A stretch of 64,000 nt of DNA from Ruficoccus amylovorans. Its GTDB lineage: Bacteria; Verrucomicrobiota; Verrucomicrobiia; Opitutales; Cerasicoccaceae. Shown piece after piece: positions 11,692 to 35,404 of the stretch (its first letter is position 1; each line of letters opens with the position of its first letter). The stretch is from the NCBI RefSeq assembly GCF_014230085.1, contig NZ_JACHVB010000035.1, positions 558,001 to 622,000 of the forward strand, written 5' to 3'. The notes below the pieces were generated by a model. That model ran no database searches. It worked only from the letters and a program-made list of their open reading frames with translations, and was not told the DNA's origin. A program made the translations under genes and the position numbers.

Positions 11692-13466
11692 TGAACCGCT
11701 CCTTCGTCTCCAGCTTCCGTTTTATCCTGATTGTCGTTGGCATCGTCGCCTGCTTTGCCTCCGTCTTCGGACGGCTGTTTTATTTGCAGGTGATCGATCA
11801 GGAGAAACTGAGCCGGATCGTTGAGAGCAACCGCAAGACCTTTCAGGTCATCAACGCCCGCCGGGGCGACATCGTGGACTCGCGCGGCGAACTGCTTGCC
11901 ACCACGACCGAGGTTTACCAGATCGGGGTGGACCCGCACGCGATCAAGGAAGAGGACTACGAAAAGGCTTCCGCCCTGGCCGCGATCCTGCGCGTGCCCG
12001 AGAGCGAGATCCGCGAGAAGTTCGACACCCGCATGCGCGAGGTCAACGGCCCGGATGGCCCCGAACTGCGCGACATTCACTGGCACAAGCTGGCCGACAA
12101 CGTGACCCGCGACGCGCTCATGCGCATCCGCGAACTGGACATCCGCGCCGTTTACGGTAACCCGCAGTACCTGCGCGTCTATCCCTCGACCTCGCTGGCC
12201 GCCCACACCGTGGGTTTTATCAACAAGGAGGAGTCCGCCGTCTCCGGCGTCGAGCGCTGGCTGGACTTTTACCTGCGCGGGCAGGACGGCTGGAGCGAGG
12301 CCGAGCGCGATGGCCGTCGCCGCGAGCTGGTGCAGTTCCAGACACGTGAGGTGCAGCCGCGCCCCGGCCTGAACGTCGAGCTGACCCTAGACATGGTGAT
12401 CCAGCACTTCGCCGAGGAGCAGGTGCAGGAAATCGTCAAAGCCTACCAGCCCAAGGGCGTGACCATTATCGTCAGCGAGCCGACTACCGGCTACCTGCTG
12501 GCGCTGGCCAACTACCCGAGCTTCAACCCGAACGTTTTCTGGAAGTCCCCCTCCGAGGCCCTGCGCAACCGTGCCGTGAGCGACGTTTACGAGCCGGGCA
12601 GCACGTTCAAGATCGTGGCCGCTGCCGCCGCGCTGGAGGAGCACCTTGTCCGCCCGCAGGATGAGCTGGATTGCAGTCTGGCGACGGTCGAGTACAAGGG
12701 CCGTCCGCTGTCGCTGCCGAAGGATTCGCATCCGCTGGGCAAGATCAGCATGGAAGAGGTCGTCGTGAAGTCCAGCAACCGTGGGGCCGCGCTTCTGGGC
12801 ATGCGCCTGGGGGAAGAACGTCTTTATAAATACGCCCGCGCCTTCGGCTACGGGGAAAAGACTGGCCTGGGCATGGGCGCGGAGTCGCGCGGCCTGCTGG
12901 CCGAGCCTTCGCGTTGGGACGGGCTGACCATCAGCCGCCTGCCTATGGGCCACGCCATCGGCGCGACCCCCTTGCAAGTCCACATGGCGATGGCCACGGT
13001 GGCCAACCGCGGCGTGCTCATGCAGCCGCAGGTCGTGCGCAGGCTTTTCGACGAGCACGGCGAGACGGCTGTTTCTTTTGATCCGGTGGCGCGTCGCCGG
13101 GTGATTTCTTCCGATACGGCCTACACCCTCTCGGGTATGCTGGCCAAGGTCTGCGCCCCCGGAGGCACGGCCCGCGAGGCCGCCATTCCCGGCTACGAAG
13201 CCGCAGGCAAGACGGGCACGACTCAGAAAATCGTGAATGGCCGCTACTCCAGCAGCCACCACATCGGTTCTTTCAGCGGGTTTTTCCCGGCTTCCTCCCC
13301 GGCTCTGGTCATCACTGTGGTGGTGGACGAGCCCCAGCTCAACGGCGTCGGCTACGGTGGCAAGGTTGCCGCCCCGGCCTTCAGTGCGCTGGCGGAGAAG
13401 TGTGCGTCCTACCTCGGCATCCAGCCGGGCGAGGAAAAACAGATGCTGGCTCTTTCAGAAAGGTGA
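11691..13466 (+). CDS. ftsI: peptidoglycan D,D-transpeptidase FtsI (PBP3)
   Basis: Septum-specific class B penicillin-binding protein that cross-links peptidoglycan at the division site. It is 591 aa. One N-terminal transmembrane helix (about residues 9-30) is followed by the pedestal domain and the transpeptidase domain. The active-site motifs are intact: SxxK as STFK (304-307, catalytic Ser304), SxN as SSN (361-363) and KTG at 507-509. The ATG overlaps the ftsL stop (TGATG), indicating coupling. No PASTA domains are present. FtsW, its glycosyltransferase partner, lies further down the operon. Confidence 0.95.
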   Translation: MNRSFVSSFRFILIVVGIVACFASVFGRLFYLQVIDQEKLSRIVESNRKTFQVINARRGDIVDSRGELLATTTEVYQIGVDPHAIKEEDYEKASALAAILRVPESEIREKFDTRMREVNGPDGPELRDIHWHKLADNVTRDALMRIRELDIRAVYGNPQYLRVYPSTSLAAHTVGFINKEESAVSGVERWLDFYLRGQDGWSEAERDGRRRELVQFQTREVQPRPGLNVELTLDMVIQHFAEEQVQEIVKAYQPKGVTIIVSEPTTGYLLALANYPSFNPNVFWKSPSEALRNRAVSDVYEPGSTFKIVAAAAALEEHLVRPQDELDCSLATVEYKGRPLSLPKDSHPLGKISMEEVVVKSSNRGAALLGMRLGEERLYKYARAFGYGEKTGLGMGAESRGLLAEPSRWDGLTISRLPMGHAIGATPLQVHMAMATVANRGVLMQPQVVRRLFDEHGETAVSFDPVARRRVISSDTAYTLSGMLAKVCAPGGTAREAAIPGYEAAGKTGTTQKIVNGRYSSSHHIGSFSGFFPASSPALVITVVVDEPQLNGVGYGGKVAAPAFSALAEKCASYLGIQPGEEKQMLALSER

Positions 13467-13473
13467 TTGGATA

Positions 13474-15069
13474 ATGGCTCTACCGGGAATGGAACTGCTA
13501 CTGGGGGGACTGCGCAGCGGGCGCCGGCCCTTCGTGTGTTCGTTTGGCATGGCTGGCGGCGGCGCTTCGAGCGTCGGCCCGCAGTGGCCCAGCCTGGACG
13601 AACTCATCAAGGACCTGCCGGCGGTAAATTTCCGTGGAGAGGGCAAGACGCCCGTGCGCGCGCTCGTCACCGACAGCCGCCGCGTCGCCCCCGGCTCGCT
13701 CTTTTTCGCCCTCGGCGGCCTGCGCACCGACGGTAACCTCTACATCGAGGAAGCTATCGACCGGGGCGCGGTCGGCATCGTATCCGAGAGCCCGGCGGAG
13801 TCCATCCGCCAGGTGCCGTACCTCCAGGTCGAGGACTGCCGTGCGGCGCTGGCTGAAGTCGCCCGCCGCTTTCACGGACGCCCGGACGACGAGCTGGACC
13901 TGTTCGCCGTCACCGGCACGAACGGCAAGACGACCGTCTCCTTTCTCGCCCAGCACCTGCTGGCGGACGAGCCCCACACCGTGGGCCTGATTGGCACCGT
14001 CCACTACGACCTGGGCAAACGCACGCTGCCCTCGTACAAGACCACGCCCGAGTCGCTCGATATTTACTCCATGCTCAGCCAGATGGTGAGCGAGGGCTGC
14101 AAGCAGGCCGTGGTGGAAGTCAGCTCTCACGCCATCCAGCAGCAGCGCGTCGATGGGGTACGTTTCCCCGTGGCGGCGTTCCTGAACCTGACCCAGGACC
14201 ACATCGATTACCACCGCAACATGGAGGCGTACTTCGAAGCCAAGAGTCGCCTCTTCACCGGGGCGCTCGGGTCGGTGCCGAAGGTTGCCCTGATTAATAT
14301 CGACGACCCCTATGGCCGTCGCTTGGTGGGGATGGTCCCCGAGGGTGTGAAGGTGATTACTTACGGCGTTTGCGCCGACGCCGACCTGCGGGCCGAACAC
14401 ATCAAGCTCGGGGCGCAGGGCAGCTCCTTTGACCTCGTCTGGCCCGAGGGCCGGGTGCGGGTGGAAACCCCGCTTTTGGGGCATTACAACGTCGCCAACA
14501 CGGTGGCGGCGGTCGGCTTGGCCTACGCGCACGGCAAGTCCCCGGCGGACCTGGTGGAGCGTATTGCCTCCTTCAAGGGCGTCCCCGGACGCATGGAAAA
14601 GGTCGTTTCCGGCCAGCCCTATCAGGTGCTGGTGGACTATGCCCATACCGACGACGCGCTTTCCAACGCCCTGACCATGCTGCGCGAAATCACCGCCGGT
14701 CGCCTGCTGGTGGTCTTCGGCTGCGGCGGCGACCGCGACCGCACCAAGCGCCCCAAGATGACGGGTGCGGTGCAGAACTTCGCCGACTACGCCTGGGCCA
14801 CGGCGGACAACCCCCGCAAGGAGGACCTGAAGCAGATTTTCGACGACATGCGGCAGGGCGTCAGCGTACCCGAGCGCATCGCCTTTGTCGATGACCGCCG
14901 CCGCGCCATCAGCCTCGCCCTGCAGGAAGCCGGTCCGGGCGACTGCGTGCTCATCGCGGGCAAGGGGCATGAAACCTATCAGGAATTTTCAGATACCGTG
15001 GTGCCTTTCGACGACCGTCAGGTGGCCCGCGAACTGATTAATCTGAAAGCCATTGAGCCGGATGCCTGA
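13474..15069 (+). CDS. murE: UDP-MurNAc-tripeptide synthetase (meso-DAP-adding)
   Basis: Cytoplasmic ligase that adds the third residue to UDP-MurNAc-L-Ala-D-Glu. It is about 531 aa from the ATG 7 bases after ftsI; the N-terminal 25 residues look atypical and the next Met (position 13489) is an alternative start. The N-terminal domain has TDSRRVAPGSLFFAL, and the ATP site is VTGTNGKTTVSFL. The motif DNPRKED (445-451) is the form seen in meso-diaminopimelate-adding enzymes rather than lysine-adding ones, so the wall should contain meso-DAP. It overlaps murF. Confidence 0.95.
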   Translation: MALPGMELLLGGLRSGRRPFVCSFGMAGGGASSVGPQWPSLDELIKDLPAVNFRGEGKTPVRALVTDSRRVAPGSLFFALGGLRTDGNLYIEEAIDRGAVGIVSESPAESIRQVPYLQVEDCRAALAEVARRFHGRPDDELDLFAVTGTNGKTTVSFLAQHLLADEPHTVGLIGTVHYDLGKRTLPSYKTTPESLDIYSMLSQMVSEGCKQAVVEVSSHAIQQQRVDGVRFPVAAFLNLTQDHIDYHRNMEAYFEAKSRLFTGALGSVPKVALINIDDPYGRRLVGMVPEGVKVITYGVCADADLRAEHIKLGAQGSSFDLVWPEGRVRVETPLLGHYNVANTVAAVGLAYAHGKSPADLVERIASFKGVPGRMEKVVSGQPYQVLVDYAHTDDALSNALTMLREITAGRLLVVFGCGGDRDRTKRPKMTGAVQNFADYAWATADNPRKEDLKQIFDDMRQGVSVPERIAFVDDRRRAISLALQEAGPGDCVLIAGKGHETYQEFSDTVVPFDDRQVARELINLKAIEPDA

Positions 15070-31970: not shown

Positions 31971-32178
31971 TAGTGTCCCGTGAGCTAAGTTACTCGCATA
32001 AGTTTTTGGGGTGCAACCCAGTTTGGATGCTCCTCAGGGATTGTTGCTTTTAGCAAAGCTAAAAGCAACAATCCCTGACGCGATGCGGCAGCATCGAAAG
32101 TGCAGGCTATGCCTGCTGTGGGGCTTGGGGGCGCACAGCCCCCAAAATTATATCAAGAATTTAGCTCACGGCACACTA
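31971..32178 (+). repeat. multi-hairpin repeat, copy A, with terminal inverted repeats
   Basis: A 208-base element between two converging genes. Its ends are 21-base inverted repeats matching at 19 positions (31971-31991 and 32158-32178), starting TAGTGT and ending ACACTA. Inside are a 19-bp perfect stem with an AAA loop (32036-32076), CGATGC/GCATCG (32081-32096), GCAGGC/GCCTGC with loop TAT (32102-32116) and TTGGGGGC/GCCCCCAA (about 32125-32145). The unpaired strings CAGTTTGGATGCTCCTC and GCATCGAAAGTGCAG are identical in copy B. No ORF is present. Confidence 0.85.
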
Positions 32179-32192
32179 CCGAAGCCTGATGG

Positions 32193-33050
32193 TCAGGCAG
32201 GCGGGAGCGTTTGTTTGAGCACAGCCTCATCCATCTCGTAGCGGCCGACGCGGGTGGCGGGGCCGACCATGTTGATGGAGAAGTCCTCGCCGATGCGGAT
32301 GCCGATGTCGCCACCGGGACAATGGACCGTGATGTCGCGGTCGCAGGCTCCCATCTTGTGGGCGACAGCGGCGGCGGCGCTGCTGCTGGAGCCGGAGGCC
32401 AGGGTGTAGCCCGCGCCGCGCTCCCATATCTCGATCTTGATGTTGTTGCGGTCTAGGATCTGGAGGAGCTGGACGTTGGTGCGGTTGGGGAAGCGTCCGA
32501 TCATGGTTTCGAGGATCGGCCCCAGTTCGCAGGCGAGTTCCTTGCTCACTTTGTCCATTGGGAGGACGACATGCGGATTGCCAATGGTGGCGGCGTAAGA
32601 GCGCCAGGTCTTGCCCTTGATTTCGACCGGTTCGTCGAGCACTTCGCGGGGCTCGCCGGTGACGGGGATTTTCTCGCTGTGAAAGCTGACCCTGCCCATT
32701 TCGACTTCGATGGTGTCGCCACCGTCGCGTACCTCGCAGGTGACGATCCCGCCGAGGGTTTTTACGGTAAAGGGCTTGTCCGTGACCCGCCCGGTGTCGA
32801 ACAGGTAACGGGAAAAGATGCGCAGGCCGTTGCCGCTTTTTTCGGCTTCGCTGCCGTCCGGGTTGAGGATGCGCAGCGCGAAGTCGGCTTCGTCCGTCTT
32901 TTCCGGGCCGTAGAGGATGCCATCCGAGCCGAGGCCGAAGTTGCGGTGGCAAATTTTGACCGTGTCCTCGGGAGAGGGGCACTGCGGGCAGTCCTCCGGG
33001 TCGAGCACGAGGTAGTCATTGCCAAGGGCGTGGTATTTGGAGAAAATCAT
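32193..33050 (-). CDS. dapF: diaminopimelate epimerase homologue lacking both catalytic cysteines
   Basis: Homologue of DapF, which converts LL- to meso-diaminopimelate for lysine and peptidoglycan. It is 285 aa with a typical start MIFSKYHALGNDYLVLD, the GLGSDGILYG loop and the second-half motifs FPNRTNVQLLQI and WERGAGYTLASG. The two active-site cysteines are replaced by serine: Ser72 in KSGNGLR (normally CGNG) and Ser219 in LASGSS (normally ACGT/ACGS). The fold and substrate-loop residues otherwise fit. Possibly a Ser-using variant or a relative with another substrate. I start at MIFSK because the extension upstream is unrelated. Confidence 0.82.
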   Translation of the reverse strand: MIFSKYHALGNDYLVLDPEDCPQCPSPEDTVKICHRNFGLGSDGILYGPEKTDEADFALRILNPDGSEAEKSGNGLRIFSRYLFDTGRVTDKPFTVKTLGGIVTCEVRDGGDTIEVEMGRVSFHSEKIPVTGEPREVLDEPVEIKGKTWRSYAATIGNPHVVLPMDKVSKELACELGPILETMIGRFPNRTNVQLLQILDRNNIKIEIWERGAGYTLASGSSSSAAAAVAHKMGACDRDITVHCPGGDIGIRIGEDFSINMVGPATRVGRYEMDEAVLKQTLPPA

Positions 33051-33253
33051 CCGGGAATTTAAGTCGCCGCCCGGTGGGGACATCAAGCCCAATTCACGTG
33101 CGCCAGCGTGGAACGGCGGGGCGGACAAGCGGGCGGCACTCGGAGTGCGTTCGGGCGGTGCAAACCTGTATGCCGTATCACCTGGCGTTAATCTCGGCGG
33201 GCGCTTGCTTCCGGGTTGAATTCGCGGGCCGGGGCGGTCAGCCTATCGCGAGC

Positions 33254-35404
33254 ATGGCAGACTCCCCTGATAAACTCTCCCTCTGCGGCCTGTGGGTCGA
33301 TCCCGAAGGCGTTGTCCACCTGGCCGAAGCCGCCGCCCATGAGCCCCGGCGTACCCGGCAGGCGGATTTTCGGCCCTTTCTGTGGAGCCGCGGCGGGGCG
33401 GGGGATGAGTTGGCGGGCGCGGGCGCGTTCGACCGGCTACAGCGTTTTGATTCGCTGGAGACTTATCAGGAGGCGGTCAAGGAACTGTCGGGCGCGGACT
33501 GTGTGACGGTTAAGCCGCTGGAGCATCAATACCTGCTGGAGACGCGGGAGCGGATTTTCGGCGGGCTCCACTTTGGGCAACTGCGTCGCTGCCAGCTCGA
33601 CATCGAGACGGCCTGCTCGGTGCCCGACGGCTTCCCCAGCCCTCGTCGCAAGGAGGATCGCGTGCTGGCCATCGGCCTGCGCATGGACGGCGAGAACCGC
33701 TTCCTGCTGCTGGAGGAGATGACCGACGCCGCCGAGCGCGTGTTGCTCAAGTCGCTCAACGAGGCGCTGGAGCAGATGGACCCGGATGTGATCGAGGGGC
33801 ACAACATTTTCAAGTTCGACCTGGACTACCTGCGGCAGCGCTTTCGCCGTTTCAAGGTGCCCTGCCGCTGGGGGCGCTTCGGGCAGGAGGCGTCGTGGCG
33901 CAACAGCCGCATCCGCATCGCCGAGCGCTGGGTGGACTTCCCGCGCTGCGATCTGCCGGGGCGCACGGTTTTCGATACCTACCTGATGATCCAGGTGTAC
34001 GACGTGACCACACGCGACCTGGCCTCGTACTCTCTGAAGGAAGTGGCCGTCCACCTCGGCATCTCCGACCGTGCGACACGGACGTACCTCAAGGCCGAGG
34101 CGATTCAGAAGGCCTTTACCGCGGACCGGGAAACCTTCCTCGGCTACCTCGGCGACGACCTGCGCGAGACCGCCGGGATCGCCGACCTGCTGCTGCCCAC
34201 CTATGTGGCGCAGATCAAGAGCTTTCCCATGACCTTACAGGAAGCCTGCCTGCGCGGCACAGGAGGAAAGGTGGACTTGCTTTTTCTGGAAAAGTATTAT
34301 CACGCCGGGCAGGCCCTGCCGGAGCCGCCGTCGGTGAGCGCGTTCGAGGGGGCGTACTCGCGCAGCTTTGTCTCCGGGGTACACCGGCATGTGCTCCACT
34401 ACGACGTGGCCTCGCTTTACCCGAGCCTGCTCCTGCACATCGGGCGCAACCCGGCGGGCGACACGCTCGGGATTTTTATTCCCATGCTGCAAGAGCTGCG
34501 CACCGAGCGCCTGCGCTACAAGGCGCTCGCCCGCGAGGCCGCCAGCGAGGAACTGCGCCGCGAGTATCAGGCGCGACAGGCGAGCTTCAAGATTTTGATC
34601 AATTCTTTTTACGGCTACCTCGGATTTGGCGGGGCGCGCTTTGCGGACAGCGAACTGGCGGCCGAAGTCACCCGGCGCGGACGCGAACTGCTGGTCAAGC
34701 TGATCGAAGCCTTCGAGTTGGAGGGGTGTACCGTGCTGGAGGCCGATACGGACGGGATCTACGTCAGCTCGGAAAAGGACTTCGACAATCCGGAGGGGCT
34801 GCTGGCTCGTGTGGCGGGCGACTTGCCACTGGGGATCGACCTGGAGTTCGACGGCAGCTACCCGGCGATGCTCTGCTACAAGGCGAAGAACTACGCCCTC
34901 TATGATGGCGAGCAACTGCGCATCCGCGGCTCCGCCCTGCGCTCGCGCGGGATCGAGCCCTATCTCAAGGCGTTGACCGACCAACTCATCCGCTACCTCC
35001 TGGGGATGGATGCCACGCCTCCGGGCGAACTGATCGCAGCGTATCGAAAAACAATTACGAGCGGTGAGATGCCGGTTGCCGAACTGGCCCGCCGCGAATA
35101 CCTGTCGATGAATCCGGAAGCGTACAGCAAGAGTGTCGAAACTTCGAAGAAGCCGCGCCGCGCCTCGCTGGAAGTCGCCTTGAAAATGGAGCCGCAGCCG
35201 CGCATGGGCGAGCAGGTGGCGTACTTCCTCACCTACGGGGACAAAAAGCGCGCTCCTGACTGGCAGATCGCCCGCCCGCTGGCGGACTACGACCCTGAAA
35301 CCTGTCCCTACAACGCCGACGCCTACCTCAAGAAACTTGACGACTGGGAAAAACGCTACGAGGAATTTTTACCCGGCGGCGCGGAGCAGACGGAATTGCT
35401 TTAG
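33254..35404 (+). CDS. family B DNA polymerase with 3'-5' exonuclease domain
   Basis: A 716-aa PolB-type DNA polymerase. The proofreading exonuclease domain has Exo I (DIE at about 116-118), Exo II (EGHNIFKFDLDYL near 180-192) and an Exo III-like YSLKEVAVHL region. The polymerase domain has motif A as YDVASLYPSLLL (catalytic Asp384), motif B as KILINSFYGYLG (446-457) and motif C as EADTDGIYV (Asp498 and Asp500). All catalytic residues are in place, so it should be active. The start MADSPDKLS is chosen over a longer frame whose N-terminus looks non-coding. It is shorter than E. coli Pol II and divergent from dapF. A repair or translesion role is inference. Confidence 0.88.
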   Translation: MADSPDKLSLCGLWVDPEGVVHLAEAAAHEPRRTRQADFRPFLWSRGGAGDELAGAGAFDRLQRFDSLETYQEAVKELSGADCVTVKPLEHQYLLETRERIFGGLHFGQLRRCQLDIETACSVPDGFPSPRRKEDRVLAIGLRMDGENRFLLLEEMTDAAERVLLKSLNEALEQMDPDVIEGHNIFKFDLDYLRQRFRRFKVPCRWGRFGQEASWRNSRIRIAERWVDFPRCDLPGRTVFDTYLMIQVYDVTTRDLASYSLKEVAVHLGISDRATRTYLKAEAIQKAFTADRETFLGYLGDDLRETAGIADLLLPTYVAQIKSFPMTLQEACLRGTGGKVDLLFLEKYYHAGQALPEPPSVSAFEGAYSRSFVSGVHRHVLHYDVASLYPSLLLHIGRNPAGDTLGIFIPMLQELRTERLRYKALAREAASEELRREYQARQASFKILINSFYGYLGFGGARFADSELAAEVTRRGRELLVKLIEAFELEGCTVLEADTDGIYVSSEKDFDNPEGLLARVAGDLPLGIDLEFDGSYPAMLCYKAKNYALYDGEQLRIRGSALRSRGIEPYLKALTDQLIRYLLGMDATPPGELIAAYRKTITSGEMPVAELARREYLSMNPEAYSKSVETSKKPRRASLEVALKMEPQPRMGEQVAYFLTYGDKKRAPDWQIARPLADYDPETCPYNADAYLKKLDDWEKRYEEFLPGGAEQTELL

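Follow-up and report, generated by a model that had tools for sequence, protein, structure and literature searches.

Serine at both catalytic cysteine positions in a DapF-family protein of Ruficoccus amylovorans, a probable diaminopimelate epimerase of an old and widespread subfamily

Background

The action of cofactor-independent racemases is ascribed to a thiol/thiolate pair, and the replacement of cysteine by serine is the standard means of inactivating them. To our knowledge, all studied relatives of the diaminopimelate (DAP) epimerase DapF need their two catalytic cysteines. Two further enzymes bear on the supply of DAP: LL-DAP aminotransferase (DapL), which yields LL-DAP, and DAP dehydrogenase (Ddh), which yields meso-DAP directly.

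A single Cys-to-Ser replacement leaves less than 0.1% of activity in PddB (PMC8225329) and, as told in that paper, in M. tuberculosis DapF, and it strongly lowers the activity of HisR (PMC11602996). The loss has been attributed in a review to the higher pKa of serine and its harder desolvation (PMC8142540). The first catalytic cysteine also belongs to the PROSITE signature of DapF, as quoted in PMC8225329. In DapF of Anabaena a Pro-Glu-Met loop preceding the first cysteine curves round the substrate, the second cysteine is bound by the backbone amide of Gly227, and neither cysteine sulphur has a basic residue within 4 angstroms (PMC12039745). No report of a natural DapF with serine at both positions (Ser/Ser) was found in the open-licence PMC papers searched.

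The window analysed here is a stretch of 64,000 nucleotides from Ruficoccus amylovorans. A sequence-only reading of it had drawn attention to a DapF homologue with serine in place of both cysteines and had offered three options: that the protein works with serine, that it acts on another substrate, or that another enzyme supplies meso-DAP.

Gene identity and structure

The gene (32193..33050, minus strand; ATG start at 33050) specifies a protein of 285 amino acids and is the only DapF homologue of the genome. The protein matches TIGR00652 (DapF, equivalog) with 223.6 bits against a cut-off of 114.65 and Pfam PF01678 with 170 bits against 34.7, and misses the cut-off of NF038284, the bifunctional DapF/glutamate racemase (50.5 bits against 350). 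All 17 matches among PDB sequences were to DapF or O-ureidoserine racemase. Identity to the solved DapF enzymes is about 35%, compared with only 11–18% to PhzF and hydroxyproline epimerases in fold alignments; by the PDB matches and these identities the sequence is closer to DapF than to its relatives PhzF, hydroxyproline epimerase and proline racemase. The DapF fold was borne out with Foldseek (TM 0.8–0.9) and VIA (Z 33.6–36.2) against Gram-negative, Bacillus, cyanobacterial and plant DapF structures.

In the translation the two motifs read NPDGSEAEKSGNGLRIF and WERGAGYTLASGSSSSAAAA. Ser72 (codon AGC, 32835..32837, minus strand) occupies the site of the first catalytic cysteine (Cys73 of H. 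influenzae DapF) and Ser219 (codon TCC, 32394..32396, minus strand) that of the second (Cys217), both serines aligning with the catalytic cysteines of the solved enzymes in the alignment to PDB sequences. An AlphaFold2 model (pLDDT 95.6) places each serine directly before a helix, at the N-termini of helices 73–85 and 220–232. Translation and alignment thus confirm the two replacements and their coordinates as first read, the strand, which had been left unstated, being minus. The cysteine pair that defines canonical DapF is replaced by serines here and in all 168 rows of the Ser/Ser clade. Homology and the family model place the protein with DapF, yet it is without the defining pair; we regard it as a DapF-like variant rather than a canonical DapF, and judge it likely to work as DapF does.

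Two neighbouring features were observed. Directly 3' of dapF lies a palindromic element of 208 bp (31971–32178), with imperfect outer arms of 43 nt starting TAGTGTCCCGTGAGCTAA and a perfect inner hairpin of 21 nt; it looks like a MITE, and its end sequence was not found in the same-genus loci L002–L004. Divergent from dapF is an ORF (33074–35404, plus strand) of 776 amino acids which, from the translation only, resembles a DNA polymerase of family B.

Active site

The residues that hold DAP are the same in Ser/Ser enzymes and in the 19 enzymes with both cysteines (Cys/Cys) to which they were aligned, as is the His/Glu pair (H160, E210). N11, N63, N74, H160, N192, E210 and R211 are invariant in 168/168 Ser/Ser and 19/19 Cys/Cys rows of the alignment, and N158 is invariant in all 168 Ser/Ser rows; N11, N63, N158, N192, E210, R211 and H160 are the counterparts of Asn11, Asn64, Asn157, Asn190, Glu208, Arg209 and His159 of H. 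influenzae DapF. The catalytic-site and substrate residues form the best-conserved part of the protein.

The first description of the remaining active site as conserved therefore holds for substrate binding but not for the positions adjoining the two catalytic sites, which differ consistently from those of Cys/Cys enzymes. Fixed or nearly fixed in the Ser/Ser clade are Y6, G48, K71, S72, I78, Q194, E207, I208, Y215, S219 and S222. Three of these are diagnostic: Lys71 (codon 32838..32840, minus strand), present in 166 of 168 rows where Cys/Cys enzymes have Met or Thr; Tyr215 (32406..32408, minus strand), present in every Ser/Ser row and in 0/19 Cys/Cys rows; and Ser222 (32385..32387, minus strand), found in 167 of 168 rows against Gly in 19/19. 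Position 78 is Ile in the clade and Cys in 18/19 Cys/Cys enzymes, and position 207 is Glu as against Arg in 19/19. Lys71 is replaced by Ile in two divergent Ser/Ser members (L040, L043). The clade has Ala-Glu-Lys for the Pro-Glu-Met loop of Anabaena DapF, and Gly227 of that enzyme aligns with Ser222. These clade-specific changes, set beside the loop and Gly227 contacts of the Anabaena enzyme, suggest at the level of sequence that the active site has been rebuilt, rather than altered by two isolated replacements.

An invariant cysteine elsewhere was rejected as the base: C236 is invariant in the first eight sequences but Val in other members, and C34 belongs to a motif that Cys/Cys enzymes share.

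The meso-DAP pathway

The MurE ligase of the dcw cluster (13237..15069, plus strand) carries a DNPR motif and matches NF001126 with 535.9 bits, in agreement with its earlier description as a meso-DAP-adding enzyme, so that the cell consumes meso-DAP; the true start of murE probably lies some 100 codons into the ORF. A DapL is encoded on contig C22 (18484–19716; NF004937, 668.4 bits against a cut-off of 585). Neither a second DapF homologue nor Ddh was found in the R. amylovorans genome, which is 97.8% complete. As the cell produces LL-DAP and requires meso-DAP, an epimerase must act between them, and the genome revealed no candidate for it other than the Ser/Ser protein, nor any other source of meso-DAP.

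Of the other suppliers envisaged by the sequence-only reading, a second dapF with cysteine motifs and ddh are thus both missing, and DapL, which is there, yields LL-DAP and only raises the need for an epimerase.

Conservation and spread

The search covered 54 genomes, from the genus up to the order, and 49 of them gave a DapF match. Serine stands at both sites in the 30 best order-level orthologues (30/30) and in most of the remaining matches in the order, and a scan of GTDB genomes with the Ser/Ser alignment gave Ser/Ser at all 80 of the closest loci, which excludes a sequencing error at both sites, the doubt first attached to the observation. Remote Cys/Cys DapF proteins occur in four genomes of the order from two families (f8, f24). 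One protein of the order (L046, from the 1.0-Mb genome G042) has serine at the first site and cysteine at the second (EMSGNG / KSCGSG) and sits on a very long branch; no DapL or Ddh matches were found in that genome.

The 168 Ser/Ser rows obtained over all loci represent 142 distinct proteins, and their clade covers Opitutales together with parts of at least six phyla. Most records are from Verrucomicrobiota, the others from Planctomycetota, Sumerlaeota (BRC1), Armatimonadota, cyanobacteria and, for several records, 'Deltaproteobacteria', which NCBI places in Myxococcota or Thermodesulfobacteriota; many of these records are metagenome bins, so that taxon names may be wrong. Large or complete sources are Westiellopsis prolifica (a named strain, 2.65-Mb scaffold), CP070660, CP070652 and CP011265. 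No shared gene neighbours of the Ser/Ser dapF were found outside the order, thiH, a moeA-like gene and lptF being seen nearby.

Among the distinct proteins, Ser72 is encoded by 100 AGY and 42 TCN codons and Ser219 by 12 AGY and 130 TCN codons; both codon classes are present at both sites, and serine has therefore been kept through codon switching. The dN/dS ratios, for the pairs where they were computable (Nei-Gojobori), were 0.025–0.146. Sequencing error and pseudogene were rejected on these low ratios and on the number of distinct Ser/Ser proteins.

A tree was built without columns 71–72, 78, 215 and 219–222, that is, without the trait itself. All 53 Ser/Ser rows fell on one side of a single branch, with one state change, although this was a quick method and the branch (SH-aLRT 88) is unstarred. 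The homologues thus form one clade at that level of support, and convergence was rejected, as the Ser/Ser rows stay together in the absence of the trait columns. One origin of the Ser/Ser state is the simplest reading of these alignments.

Replacement in related genomes

Forty-five genomes of the order are at least 90% complete. The Ser/Ser form is present in 39 of them, 36 of which have DapL and are without Ddh. DapL, of the TIGR03542 or the NF004937 type, occurs in 40 of the 45, all 40 of which have a DapF-family gene; the two types were never found together above threshold in the 49 order genomes (G000–G048). The two genomes in this set that are without DapF (G025 and G046) belong to different families, and both have Ddh (462 and 449 bits) and no DapL. 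Their closest sampled kin, G044 in the genus of the former and G028 in the family of the latter, have a Ser/Ser DapF and DapL and no Ddh. The opposition of DapF and Ddh in the order gives a Fisher p of 0.003, with genomes counted regardless of kinship, and the independent Ddh replacements seen within the order are only two. Such a pattern is expected, as far as gene content goes, if neither DapL nor the Ser/Ser protein is needed once Ddh, with its direct route to meso-DAP, is present. Families f8 and f24 have a Cys/Cys DapF instead of the Ser/Ser gene, alongside DapL, which points to the two forms being interchangeable. Across 194 genomes of the phylum, Ddh was present in 18 of 21 without a detected DapF, as against 29 of 173 with one.

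Outside the order, 17 genomes were reached from Ser/Ser loci. Ddh was found in none of the 17, and the Ser/Ser gene is the sole DapF in 13, including the complete chromosomes CP070660, CP070652 and CP011265. The remaining 4, two of them cyanobacteria, also hold a Cys/Cys DapF, and because of this the Ser/Ser protein may do something else there. Westiellopsis prolifica (L136) has three DapF genes, two of them canonical Cys/Cys and one Ser/Ser. Two genomes of Verrucomicrobiota, L073 (G162) and L080 (G227), have the Ser/Ser gene as well as a divergent Cys/Cys DapF-like protein (LEPDGSEAELCGNGTACF ... FGVEAETLACGTG).

The cyanobacteria with both copies lend some weight to the second of the original options, that the Ser/Ser protein epimerises or isomerises a different amino acid, such as lanthionine, glutamate or a precursor of a secondary metabolite, with meso-DAP coming from an unrecognised enzyme. 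Racemases of histidine, O-ureidoserine and 2,4-diaminobutyrate have the DapF fold, and annotation in the family is often wrong (PMC11602996, PMC8225329). Moreover, of 28 order genomes 27, R. amylovorans among them, have no glutamate racemase MurI, one of these being also without DapF, and a chlamydial DapF is reported to make D-Glu (PMC5885031). We nevertheless hold this option to be unlikely: the residues binding the distal end of DAP (N63, N158, N192, R211) do not vary among the Ser/Ser rows, and in its occurrence the gene tracks DapL and is complementary to Ddh. Genome G025, with neither MurI nor any DapF, needs another source of D-Glu, and a Chlamydia-like glutamate racemase role as the general source of D-Glu was rejected on that ground. 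A class IV aminotransferase resembling D-amino-acid transaminase, below the family cut-off, is present in both G025 and R. amylovorans (G000); in the order genomes searched, the D-amino-acid transaminase model gave below-cut-off matches only.

The same replacement patterns bear on the possibility that the protein has very little or no catalytic activity and is retained for structure or for some other non-catalytic role such as binding of RppH, an enzyme that DapF of E. coli binds and stimulates (PMC4227774). The near inactivity of single Cys-to-Ser variants in relatives (PMC8225329, PMC11602996) speaks for such a protein. A binding-only role, however, would not predict that conservation is strongest at the catalytic site and the substrate contacts, nor does it agree with loss of the gene where Ddh was gained, its exchange for a Cys/Cys DapF, or a genome in which no other source of meso-DAP was found; we consider it very improbable.

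Catalytic mechanism

The Ser/Ser protein is thus probably a functional DAP epimerase of a distinct, old subfamily, a judgement in which the function is supported by comparative genomics and the chemistry is inferred. The option that the protein works with serine is favoured, as regards function, by the replacement patterns and the invariant DAP-binding residues; catalysis by the serines themselves is deduced from their positions. Counted against this explanation are the near-inactive Cys-to-Ser relatives, the coexisting Cys/Cys DapF proteins, the change of Lys71 to Ile, and the fact that there are only two Ddh replacements.

LL-DAP from the LL-DAP aminotransferase of the genome would be taken up by the Ser/Ser protein, which would invert one alpha carbon, and the meso-DAP formed would pass to MurE and to lysine synthesis. 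Each at the N-terminus of one of two helices that face each other, Ser72 and Ser219 would stand in for the base and the acid that flank the alpha carbon, and the changes peculiar to the clade, namely Lys71 before Ser72, Ser222 three residues after Ser219, and Tyr215, would assist them. Candidates for the true base are a serine alkoxide, a serine assisted by Lys or Tyr, or another of the changed residues. The odds that the acid/base pair consists of Ser72 and Ser219 themselves are, in our judgement, about even, the main alternative being that Lys71, Tyr215 or water takes part.

In its stronger form that alternative, a sub-case of the preferred explanation whose probability overlaps with it, holds that the serines are not the acid and base at all and that Lys71, Tyr215 or solvent acts in a one-base or assisted reaction. 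Lys71 and Tyr215 are fixed, or nearly so, together with the serines, and position 71 belongs to the loop which, in the Anabaena enzyme, bends around the substrate; the cysteines of that enzyme have no basic neighbour within 4 angstroms (PMC12039745). On the other hand, not one of the 142 distinct proteins departs from serine at 72 or 219, even though the codons have switched, and Lys71 is Ile in two members, so that we regard such chemistry as possible though somewhat doubtful.

A branch so old, strictly conserved and spread over several phyla therefore probably works, by chemistry so far unexplored. There is perhaps an equal chance either way that it constitutes a widespread natural cofactor-independent epimerase which inverts the C-alpha by a two-base (or assisted) reaction without a catalytic cysteine, using Ser/Ser in a rebuilt site. 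Since the branch seemingly carries an essential cell-wall step across an order, it makes the thiol/thiolate explanation directly testable: either the right surroundings let serine work, or another residue is the base. Were this so, the thiol/thiolate pair would be dispensable for deprotonating the unactivated alpha carbon of an amino acid, Ser/Ser bacteria should be insensitive to aziridine and thiol-directed inhibitors of DapF, and the DapF annotation of these proteins, given without comment, would conceal a different active site.

Comparison with known systems

With canonical DapF (TIGR00652; H. influenzae, E. coli, Anabaena 9MRO, Arabidopsis 3EJX) the Ser/Ser protein shares fold, length and family score, the Asn, Arg, His and Glu that contact the substrate, catalytic positions at two helix N-termini, and the place in the pathway after LL-DAP. 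It differs, at about 35% identity, in having Ser for both Cys, and in Lys71, Ile78, Gln194, Glu207, Tyr215 and Ser222. The bifunctional chlamydial DapF (NF038284, PMC5885031) likewise belongs to the DapF family, comes from the same superphylum and is found in an organism without MurI, but keeps both cysteines, and the Ser/Ser protein reaches only 50.5 bits with its model, whose cut-off is 350.

Serine at a catalytic cysteine position, in the same fold, is otherwise found in H. influenzae DapF C73S and C217S (2Q9H, 2Q9J), CntK C72S and HisR C67S/C209S. These are laboratory single mutants in a cysteine background, built to slow or stop catalysis (PMC12039745, PMC11602996), whereas the Ser/Ser protein has both serines naturally, together with coordinated further changes. 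Natural exceptions in which a hydroxyl residue replaces a catalytic cysteine are the Cys/Thr aspartate/glutamate racemases EcL-DER and MMP0739, which are also cofactor-independent, and trans-3-hydroxyproline dehydratase, with Cys changed to Thr (PMC8142540). In these Cys/Thr enzymes one of the two cysteines is kept and the outcome is one-way racemisation or dehydration; the Ser/Ser protein keeps neither cysteine, and reversible epimerisation is expected of it.
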